A stretch of 33,838 nucleotides of DNA from the IMG/VR virus record IMGVR_UViG_3300042549_001991, positions 1-33,838 of that record; one strand, written 5' to 3'. This DNA is from a virus. The translations under genes and the position numbers were made by a program. Below, piece by piece: positions 6,102-27,370 of the stretch. The notes under the pieces were generated by a model that ran no database searches, was not told where the DNA came from, and saw nothing but the letters and a program-made list of their open reading frames with translations. Numbering within the stretch: the first letter of the stretch is position 1; every line of letters begins with the position of its first letter.

Positions 6102-6386
6102 TTAACCTCTCGCAATCTCTGCACTAAGCGTAAGCGCGTGGTTAAACCCATCTTGAAAAGAATTGTCAGGGTATTTATTTAACATTTTTTCAATCTCGCC
6201 CGCTATTTTCTTGCGCAAATTGTTTTCTATTCCTTGAACTCGCGCAGCTTCAAATTCTCTCAATTTGTTCATATTTTCTAAATCTTTAGGAACCAAAACA
6301 ATTGAATCACCATCAAAATAAAATGTGTTTTCAGCATTTCTCAAAAATTCAATTCTTTTAATAAATTCATCTGCCATCTCGCTCAT
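6102..6386 (-). CDS. Hypothetical helical protein (94 aa)
   Basis: A 94-residue, strongly helical and charged protein (AARVQGIENNLRKKIAGEIEKML...), likely partly coiled-coil and soluble. Its first ATG forms an ATGA overlap with the stop of the 66-residue gene upstream, which favours it over the internal ATG at 6377. No family is recognised. It sits between the tRNA-like element and the FmdB-like gene. Confidence 0.6.
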   Translation of the reverse strand: MSEMADEFIKRIEFLRNAENTFYFDGDSIVLVPKDLENMNKLREFEAARVQGIENNLRKKIAGEIEKMLNKYPDNSFQDGFNHALTLSAEIARG

Positions 6387-6583
6387 TTGTTTTTCTCGCT
6401 TTCCTCTAATTGTTTAGTAAGATCGCTCAAGCGCACATTTATTGCATCAGAAATATCTAAAATGGTCATTTCTTTAATTATTTCGTCAGTTAAGCCAAGC
6501 GCGTATGCAAGTTGCTTGTAATCTCGATCATTGATCGCGGTATTTACCTTAAACAACTTTTCAAACAGTTCTAACTTATTCAT
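6383..6583 (-). CDS. Hypothetical protein (66 aa)
   Basis: A 66-residue helical protein (MNKLELFEKL ... QLEESEKNK). The ATG at 6583 is preceded by GGGGG at six nt; an upstream open extension to 6712 would translate straight through the tRNA-like sequence and is rejected. Stop and next start overlap as ATGA. No family is recognised. Confidence 0.6.
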   Translation of the reverse strand: MNKLELFEKLFKVNTAINDRDYKQLAYALGLTDEIIKEMTILDISDAINVRLSDLTKQLEESEKNK

Positions 6584-6612
6584 TTCGTTCCCCCGTTCGG
6601 TTAAGTCTTGCG

Positions 6613-6684
6613 TGGCGTTGCAGGAATCGAACCTGCAGTTGCATCCCCCGATGCAATCCCTCATCTGTGAACCATCACAACGCC
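6613..6684 (-). tRNA. tRNA-like element, atypical or degenerate
   Basis: On the minus strand the 5' GGCGTTG pairs with a 3' CAACGCC, and a canonical T-arm (GCAGG-TTCGATT-CCTGC) lies just before the 3' side. The acceptor and T-arm share one base, so one of them is a base pair short. A middle hairpin (TTGCA...TGCAA) encloses an 8-nt loop TCGGGGGA. There is no normal D-arm: the region instead contains TGTGA-TGGT-TCACA, which would compete with the acceptor. U33 is missing and no anticodon can be assigned with confidence; GGG would be proline. CCA is not encoded. It may be a decayed tRNA, an unusual functional tRNA or a tRNA mimic. Confidence 0.5.
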
Positions 6685-6689
6685 GTTCT

Positions 6690-6718
6690 CTTGGGGTTGA
6701 AAGGAAAAGCACCCCAAG
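6690..6718 (-). terminator. Stem-loop between SSB-like gene and tRNA-like element
   Basis: CTTGGGGT (6690-6697) and ACCCCAAG (6711-6718) form a perfect 8-bp stem with a 13-nt loop, starting 5 nt after the SSB-like stop codon and 5 nt before the tRNA-like 5' end. No clear U-run follows on the minus strand, so a processing or mRNA 3'-end-protecting hairpin is as likely as a terminator. Confidence 0.45.
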
Positions 6719-6722
6719 AAGT

Positions 6723-7181
6723 TTAGTTAACTGGTTTTGCTCCCAGTTGTGCTAACAATGCCTGCACTGCAGGGTCATTGATGTTGGCGGCGGCAGGTGC
6801 CGCTGCAACTGGCGCTGGCGCTGCGCCCGCGTTACCAATAAATGCGTTTGCCTTTGCCACTGCATCTGCATCGCCTGTTGCATCCAATAGAATCCACGGC
6901 GCTGACTTACCAGGCTTTGCCGACCCCTGACCAATGCGTGCCAATACTTTTTGACCAATCTTGTTTTTCAATGCGTTCTTCAAAGCTACATTAAAGAACA
7001 ACACTGATTCGTGATTGAAGCCTGTATCCAAATCATTGATACGAACTTCAATTGCATCGGCATCACCGTGAACTGTTGGGATGCCAGTTTTGTATTCAAC
7101 CGCTTCAAGAATGAGCAAGTGTCCGTTCAAATCGGCAACTTTGACCGATTCTGTGTTACTGCTAGGTGCTGAAAAAGCCAT
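6723..7181 (-). CDS. Single-stranded DNA-binding-like protein
   Basis: A 152-residue protein with a beta-rich N-terminal ~115 residues (DLNGHLLILEAVEYKTGIPT..., VLARIGQG, SAPWILLDATGDADA) and an Ala/Pro-rich flexible tail. This pattern matches a widespread actinophage family annotated as ssDNA-binding or OB-fold protein and normally located beside exonuclease and primase genes, as here. The acidic tail tip typical of SSB is absent, so the binding role is a family-based inference. GGGGGAAA lies 8 nt upstream of the ATG. It probably coats ssDNA for the primase-helicase and Cas4-like exonuclease. Confidence 0.7.
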   Translation of the reverse strand: MAFSAPSSNTESVKVADLNGHLLILEAVEYKTGIPTVHGDADAIEVRINDLDTGFNHESVLFFNVALKNALKNKIGQKVLARIGQGSAKPGKSAPWILLDATGDADAVAKANAFIGNAGAAPAPVAAAPAAANINDPAVQALLAQLGAKPVN

Positions 7182-7219
7182 TTGGCTTTCCCCCGTTTCT
7201 TTTTGGTTTGAGTTTGGTG

Positions 7220-10103: not shown

Positions 10104-10652
10104 CTAAAGGCGCTGAATTTCTATCTGAAAAGGTGGGGCGGTGTTGATGTCGTATTTAGCAGCAATTGCCAGCGCCTCAAGAATCCGATCAGTTGCCCAA
10201 TCCGATTGGGCAAGGTTGGGCAGTTGCCCCGCCAATGCGCCAAGCGCGTAGGCAGAGCCACTGCCAACCCCATAGAGGCCATCGGCGCTTTGGGTCACAC
10301 TCAAGTCATCGCCAATTTCAAATACATTGCCAGCAAATGCCAGCAGGTATGAGTAACTAATTCCCTCTTTAGTGTAATCAAATCCCTGCAACTTAAATGC
10401 GGCAATAATGCTTGGGATGATCTTTCTGCCCATAAAGGTAACTGGGTTGGTGCCATCGTAGGCTGGTGGTGTCCAGTTGTAGGTCAAAACATCCCCTGGC
10501 CGACAGTCACCGCTTACAGCTAACAGGTACTTCTTTAGCTTTATAATCTTGGGTGTGCTGGGCGAAATGATGCGCTTATCCCCATCTGTCACCTGAGAGT
10601 CTGCCCCTAGAATGGCAAAATCAGGCCCCTGGTAGGCGATTAGCGTGGTCAT
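10104..10652 (-). CDS. Proteasome beta/HslV-like Ntn hydrolase
   Basis: A 182-residue Ntn-hydrolase of proteasome beta/HslV type. From the ATG at 10652 the protein begins M-TTLIAYQG; after Met removal Thr1 would be the nucleophile. Counting from it, D17 (GADSQ), K34 at the place of Lys33 (PKIIKL), G47 (SGD), a GVGSGSAYALGALAG segment matching the S129 region, and YDINT matching the D166 region are all present. An in-frame GTG at 10715 would add a 21-residue propeptide, as host beta subunits have, so that start is possible. It heads the leftward early operon behind a 15-bp leader stem-loop. It could degrade or process host or phage proteins, or mix with host proteasome rings; the target is unknown. 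Confidence 0.75.
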   Translation of the reverse strand: MTTLIAYQGPDFAILGADSQVTDGDKRIISPSTPKIIKLKKYLLAVSGDCRPGDVLTYNWTPPAYDGTNPVTFMGRKIIPSIIAAFKLQGFDYTKEGISYSYLLAFAGNVFEIGDDLSVTQSADGLYGVGSGSAYALGALAGQLPNLAQSDWATDRILEALAIAAKYDINTAPPFQIEIQRL

Positions 10653-13204: not shown

Positions 13205-13224
13205 TGATTCCCCCGAATCTGTAT

Positions 13225-27346: not shown

Positions 27347-27370
27347 AGATTCCCCCGAATCATTTAAGAA

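Follow-up and report, generated by a model that had tools for sequence, protein, structure and literature searches.

tRNAs punctuate polycistronic transcripts in organelles and in the tRNA arrays of phage T4, and the bacterial Y RNA YrlA carries a tRNA-like module. The C4 antisense RNA of phages P1 and P7 and the phi80-induced RNA are phage-encoded, are cut by host RNase P and are not decoding tRNAs. The 3' ends of MALAT1 and MEN-beta are structured as a triple helix, and just downstream of this lie mascRNA and menRNA. The structural account in PMC11693755 describes these two RNAs as having a small D-arm with two conserved G, a longer middle stem, a compact loop and junction linkers that have been lost; both are substrates of RNase P and RNase Z, and the elbow made by the two D-loop G and the T-loop is taken to explain the processing. 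The treatment of precursor ends in PMC11143913 gives C-1 as commoner than U-1 in certain high-GC bacteria, e.g. mycobacteria, and describes a phage T4 tRNAPro-tRNASer precursor that lacks CCA and has a spacer of 3 nt. Phage RNAs as targets of RNase P are already a known kind, as are tRNA-like modules at 3' ends, but a conserved non-decoding mini-cloverleaf as the mark of a phage operon was not found in the open-licence literature searched.

The window, i.e. the whole stretch of DNA analysed, comprises the 33,838 bases of a virus record in IMG/VR, and its identified genes all lie on the minus strand. On that strand a tRNA-like RNA of 73 nt was found, flanked by an SSB-like gene and a variable gene, the order being the SSB-like stop codon (6723), a hairpin H1 (6720-6688), three bases, the tRNA-like RNA (6684-6612) and the next start codon (6583). 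The features, all on the minus strand, are:

6723..7181, minus strand: upstream gene for an SSB-like protein (phrog_870) of 152 aa (PHROGs match, Foldseek)
7187..7196, minus strand: G-rich ribosome-binding region (ACGGGGGAAA) preceding the SSB-like gene, with CGGGGGA in common with the middle arm of the RNA
6688..6720, minus strand: upstream hairpin H1, 10-bp stem, TCCTTTC in the loop (predicted fold)
6685..6687, minus strand: leader of 3 nt, base -1 being C (sequence)
6612..6684, minus strand: tRNA-like RNA, G1 to C74 (covariance model R1, covariation)
6679..6684, minus strand: acceptor 5' strand GGCGTT, partner 6614-6619 (fold and covariation)
6667..6678, minus strand: mini D-arm GTGA-TGGT-TCAC, loop with GG (fold and covariation)
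6639..6656, minus strand: middle (anticodon-like) arm TTGCATC-GGGG-GATGCAA (fold and covariation)
6620..6636, minus strand: T-arm GCAGG-TTCGATT-CCTGC (fold, covariation, T-loop count)
6612..6619, minus strand: acceptor 3' strand AACGCC with A73 and C74, CCA not encoded (sequence, relatives)
6383..6583, minus strand: the variable ('cargo') gene downstream, its start codon 28 nt on from the RNA, Shine-Dalgarno GGGGG

A WhiB gene in the window (Pfam), together with the finding that the 80 phage records with relatives of the SSB-like protein (tblastn) each bear an actinobacterial genus name, points to an actinobacterial host, likely among the freshwater Nanopelagicales.

Relatives of the locus were collected by three scans of IMG/VR with the SSB-like protein, the best 80 of 323, 362 and 339 relatives being kept from each. 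A covariance model (R1) built from the window's clade, with the window as one of 13 seeds, scored 93.9 bits (E 2.3e-21) on the window element and also reached other clades; like a second model (R2), it contains sequences later found by it. R2 found the element, with position and orientation unchanged, in 80/80 loci of the first scan and in 71/75 loci chosen from the second and third, a total of 151/155, and the four misses (L132, L143, L170 and L179) all run off contig ends. The 75 loci consist of 68 of the 80 from the second scan, 12 having been omitted as their contigs were already covered, and 7 of the 80 from the third, the remainder of which repeats earlier contigs as judged by eye; among the seven, L339 duplicates L183. 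A parse by hand, which required GGGG, a D-arm GG and 11 nt, placed 150 of 160 loci. The ten unplaced were six of the L016 type and L112, all seven of which were found by R2, together with L132, L143 and L179, which were truncated at a contig end or beyond reach; L170 had been excluded beforehand, having no stop codon. The same arrangement behind the SSB-like stop codon was seen almost everywhere in the first two scans, with acceptor stems that differ widely (GGCGTT/AACGCC, GGAGT/ACTCC, GGAAT/ATTCC, GACATT/AATGTT, GAAAT/ATTTC, GCAGT/ACTGC and GAAGA/TCTTC).

In an alignment of 43 sequences (40 distinct) 96.5% of cells were standard pairs, as against 33-48% when partners were slid, and both-sided changes occurred at 19/22 pairs among the 40 distinct sequences. 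Cells with double changes numbered 224 versus 66 in shuffles, and the covariation score was 0.579, compared with 0.163 +/- 0.012 for shuffled alignments and 0.06-0.13 with partners slid. A caveat that must be applied to these figures is that the covariance-model alignment (A7) was fitted to its own structure and leaves compact D-arms unaligned, 10-16 of the 40 rows being set aside. A chance origin is excluded by the 151/155 loci and the covariation, and on this comparative evidence the element is an RNA structure under strong selection. The earlier note, which had proposed a tRNA-like RNA at this locus and had listed a lack of conserved paired positions in related phages under refutation, was borne out, and the paired positions proved conserved, whereas its suggestion of a decayed tRNA is contradicted by the dense compensatory change. 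Single folds were less uniform. The window element folds at -30.2 kcal/mol (z -3.0, 1/200 shuffles equally good) and with its surroundings at z -2.1 (7/200 equally good), and four of five compact members folded singly give a cloverleaf, L107 being the exception, with z from -0.35 to -2.6. Since the single-sequence folds of compact members are weak, the case rests on covariation.

The acceptor of the window has 6 pairs and with the T-stem makes an 11-bp stack, compared with 12 in a tRNA. The note had described a correct T-arm and an acceptor of 6-7 bp. The stack is 11 bp in parsed members and 12 in L332 and L350 (by eye), and the 11 nt from the T-loop to base 73 in 47 distinct cores is a length fixed by the parse itself. 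The T-loop is of the UUCRANY type found in tRNAs, with UUCGAUU in 36, UUCAAUU in 3 and UUCGACU in 2 of the 43 sequences (UUCRAYU in 41/43), from which one UGCAAAU and one UGCAAUU depart. The D-arm, which had been described as replaced by TGTGA-TGGT-TCACA, is not gone; it is shrunken to GTGA-TGGT-TCAC and keeps GG in its loop. Across the family its stem counts 3-4 pairs and its loop 3-6 nt, and GG is present in the loop of 34/35 hand-segmented sequences, L112 being the exception, once eight D-arms cut one base off (L064, L065, L071, L072, L108, L109, L112 and L176) had been re-read by eye; counted on covariance-model columns alone GG is found in 28/43, since compact D-arms are unaligned there. 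The linker from D-arm to middle arm is 0-5 nt in compact members and 8-14 nt in the window type (10 nt in the window). Among 107 distinct flanks of relatives, a set that includes some contigs fetched twice and in which two yielded no start codon, G1 and C74 are each present in 107/107, base 73 is A in 105 and G in 2, and base -1 is C in 71, A in 33, G in 3 and U in none.

Sequence, length and loop size all vary freely in the middle arm, the loop ranging from 4 to 13 nt in relatives by hand segmentation. For the window's arm, a stem of 7 bp capped by a GGGG tetraloop is a better reading than the 8-nt GGGGG loop first described, and 8 nt is no constant of the family. GGGG itself stands between D-arm and T-stem in 43/43 aligned sequences, preceded by C in 32, T in 10 and A in 1, and in the L016/L023 type it lies outside the hairpin, the loop of which is GCAA. 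The anticodon hairpin of a tRNA, with its 5-bp stem and a 7-nt loop containing U33, was not found, and the absence of U33 was confirmed in the window. An extra base in a proline-type loop had been thought to recall +1 frameshift suppressors; with loops of 4-13 nt and a GGGG that can leave the hairpin this idea fails. That the element is any decayed or unusual decoding tRNA, of proline type or a +1 suppressor, is extremely improbable, for although GGG in the middle loop, the acceptor and the T-arm speak for one, the covariation and the lack of U33 and of a fixed 7-nt loop speak against it. So does ARAGORN, one of the tRNA checks suggested earlier, which called no tRNA in the window and the element in 0/32 loci, two 'tRNA-???' calls lying elsewhere.

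Nothing in Rfam 15 reached its gathering threshold in the window, RF00005 included; the best match on 6500-6800 was tRNA-Sec at 24.8 bits against a gathering threshold of 47, and relaxed thresholds gave only weak, mixed matches. The mascRNA-menRNA model RF01684 matched neither the window stretch (E<=5) nor any of eight relatives (E<=10). A comparison with host tRNA genes, a further check proposed earlier, brought no match of R2 at E<=0.001 in 148 genomes of Microtetraspora's class, which is weak evidence as the filters were stricter, there was no positive control and the genomes may not include freshwater actinobacteria. An SSB profile search of genome contigs gave one distant match, in a Microtetraspora genome in which R2 had no match.

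One strong copy was found in 16/17 long records. In the 17th (G018) the whole-record search missed the element, which is present by hand parse and by R2 (L110, 28 bits), and two of the long records carry an extra weak match of 20-21 bits, that in G001 being a tRNA-like sequence across a gene start. A pattern scan of IMG/VR for CGGGG followed by a T-arm returned at least seven family members (L082, L232, L225, L243, L250, L214 and L249) and, among the matches listed, many ordinary tRNAs, as judged by R2 on 80 loci and L189 and by ARAGORN on 60. The R2 matches without an ARAGORN gene were L218 and L190 (35.5 bits, by eye the 3' end of a tRNA-Ser). Real tRNAs reach ~35 R2 bits, and below ~36 it is the place behind the SSB gene that decides membership; such low scorers include L072, L105-L106, L108-L112, L117-L118, L121, L123, L180-L183, L332, L339 and L350, the ranges being incomplete. 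L218, from another phage genome, has two compact tRNA-like sequences preceded by a leader that they share (10106-10164 and ~10240-10325, minus strand), of which the first has a sub-threshold Rfam mascRNA-menRNA match (26.3 bits, gathering 42.5); their folds are unconvincing (z -1.1 and 0.4). A DNA search of phage records with the element gave no match. Five cultured actinophages with a related SSB have hairpins behind it and no such element, the only R1 match in them (15.9 bits) lying elsewhere in one, which argues that its function is dispensable.

The upstream stem-loop, which the earlier note had thought might set 5' processing, proved general, as predicted folds of 78 distinct upstream regions each place a hairpin ending 0-6 nt before G1 (mode 3), and some clades have two hairpins upstream of the element. 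H1 has no T-run after its stem and is not among the predicted terminator sites, so it does not look like an intrinsic terminator. CCTTTC lies between stop codon and element in 85/107 flanks, only CTTCC in 14 and neither in 8, so that one or other motif (CCUUUC or CUUCC) is present in 99/107; the clade of L065, L069 and L071 is without CCUUUC. Two roles for the motif were considered. Kissing between the H1 loop and the GGGG loop is plausible by eye (UUCCGU/ACGGGG, UCCUUU/GGGGGA), but in the 73 of 80 distinct sequences scored, the remainder having no usable loop, duplexes were no better than shuffled (mean -4.9 versus -5.5 kcal/mol; by the median, a share of 0.62 of the shuffles did equally well), and kissing was rejected. 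A putative mimicry of the actinobacterial 16S anti-Shine-Dalgarno by CCUUUC would be indistinguishable from chance, and one clade has no such motif. A small open reading frame (~45-55 aa by eye) lies between the SSB-like gene and the hairpins in L059, L067, L119, L120, L132, L139, L151, L154, L165 and L332, the element staying behind it.

The observed structure, conservation, position and downstream-gene variability are best fitted by a mimic of a substrate of tRNA-processing enzymes, which was among the proposals of the earlier note. By analogy with human mascRNA the element would be an mRNA-processing signal, a site for RNase P and perhaps RNase Z, and we give this reading a probability of roughly 55%. 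It is favoured because the features read by these enzymes (elbow, acceptor/T stack, R73-C74 and an unpaired -1) are kept while decoding features are gone, and because base -1 is mostly C, as reported for mycobacterial tRNAs. The early operon would be transcribed through the SSB-like gene, the hairpin or hairpins H1, the tRNA-like RNA and the next gene, and the tRNA-like part would form a mini D-arm and an acceptor/T stack bent into an elbow. A cut by host RNase P before G1 would then leave the SSB mRNA with an H1-capped 3' end, a likely obstacle to 3' exonucleases. The other end, near position 73/74, would probably be the work of RNase Z or exonucleases, and the downstream gene would keep a leader of ~25 nt with its own Shine-Dalgarno, so that any gene in this place would be uncoupled from the SSB message. 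The short leader compares well with the 3-nt spacer of the T4 precursor, and in 101/105 the distance from C74 to the start codon is 21-35 nt, near-constant despite the 15 dissimilar clusters of downstream genes described below. Against processing are the stack of 11 and not 12 bp, the absence of an encoded CCA (of the 3' RCCA of RNase P substrates only RC is encoded), the unmatched Rfam mascRNA model, a window-type linker longer than that of mascRNA and the five cultured actinophages.

The closest likeness is to mascRNA and menRNA, which share the reduced build and serve RNase P and Z as substrates: a compact cloverleaf with a small GG D-arm, retained acceptor and T-arm and a non-decoding middle arm, just downstream of a structured 3' end, a hairpin in the phage and a triple helix in MALAT1 and MEN-beta. 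Unlike them the RNA described here comes from phages of bacteria, is intergenic in a coding operon, is a putative processing substrate and has a conserved GGGG loop. Like the C4 and phi80 RNAs it is a non-decoding phage RNA and a putative host RNase P substrate; those RNAs were shown by experiment, whereas the actinophage RNA is a family conserved next to an SSB-like gene, and its cutting would follow from its build. As in organelles and T4 a tRNA fold would lie at a boundary between messages, though the phage mark would be a mimic with no decoding role, and as in YrlA there is a tRNA-like module, of which the phage RNA is the module only.

The constancy of the GGGG of the middle arm and of the H1 motif is not accounted for by processing alone. 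CGGGGGA occurs five times on the coding strand of the window, four times just before start codons and once as the middle-arm loop, and twice on the other strand. The Shine-Dalgarno copies lie at 7189-7195, 6589-6595, 13209-13215 and 27351-27357 (minus strand). The loop thus displays the phage's own Shine-Dalgarno-like motif, which together with GGGG in every aligned sequence would suit a released small RNA acting in trans as a decoy or sponge, e.g. on the anti-Shine-Dalgarno or a tRNA-binding enzyme. It is rather unlikely, as there is one strong copy per record beside one gene, the promoter and terminator scan of the window found no sigma-70-like site adjoining the RNA, and a single phage RNA would need ribosome-like numbers. 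The trans and processing readings are not exclusive, and a combination, in which a whole phage lineage uses a mascRNA-like module as its general punctuation, RNase P frees the SSB message and a tRNA-shaped RNA of 56-76 nt, any gene slots in behind and the freed RNA with its Shine-Dalgarno-like loop acts on translation in infected cells, seems rather doubtful.

A run of at least four G also precedes the SSB start codon in every relative listed, with the preceding C in some clades only, and in one clade it stands 1 nt from the AUG with GGAG in the Shine-Dalgarno place. In L072, L107, L172 and similar loci the SSB start reads GGAG-(A/U)CGGGGGA-AUG. Such a run beside a normal Shine-Dalgarno is a possible operator. 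T4 gp32 and M13 gpV are autoregulated, and the element might likewise regulate SSB synthesis in cis if the SSB-like protein bound G-runs before its start codon and in the 3' element. This is unlikely, since GGGGG is also the ordinary Shine-Dalgarno of several other phage genes and the putative binding depends on an OB fold from a low-confidence model. The protein matches phrog_870 (E 1.1e-22), a PHROGs family whose function is not annotated; the AlphaFold model of a homologue (mean pLDDT 58) has strands and a helix in OB-like order, and its best Foldseek matches were to the PRD1 SSB P12 (E 8e-3 and 2e-2, probability 0.99), none reaching E 0.001.

The two sides of the SSB-like gene, itself constant by search design, differ greatly. 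The gene before it falls in 6 clusters, with 114/142 in one that is probably the exonuclease found in the window, while 144 downstream genes form 15 clusters with no mutual BLAST similarity at E 1e-3. Start codons and downstream genes were picked by a script (the first open frame with a preceding G-rich stretch), and partial genes are included. The window's own downstream product is a small protein with no match in PHROGs or Pfam; elsewhere the slot holds Mom and an acetyltransferase (by Pfam) and, judged by eye, several DNA methyltransferases, zinc-ribbon proteins, a primase-polymerase and further kinds. In one locus (L129, 3548-4437) a Mom gene (PF25680) is flanked by an intact element on one side and by a repeat of the element's 3' half on the other, a pattern resembling that left by insertions into tRNA genes, as in att-site duplications. 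The disparity and this repeat would fit a docking site, the tRNA-like sequence being the place where cargo genes insert or are exchanged. This is very unlikely, as the repeat was seen in only 1/150 parsed loci within the stretch examined, no integrase was named among the 39 window proteins scanned and a DNA site needs no compensatory RNA pairing. As a separate observation, in L079 (8338-8415) a tRNA (RF00005, 34.9 bits; by eye Gly/UCC-like with CCA) overlaps the start of the Mom coding sequence and also encodes part of its N-terminus (CGDGVM...GGSIPTS); L065 (6851-6926) and L309 (2582-2651, minus strand) resemble this arrangement by eye only.

If the processing reading is true, the element would be a phage counterpart of mascRNA, and a mini-cloverleaf that ends transcripts by way of tRNA-processing enzymes would have evolved twice. 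It would provide a testable RNA signal for the phages of hard-to-culture actinobacteria, and would explain how genes so unlike each other come to occupy a single slot after an early gene that is highly conserved.
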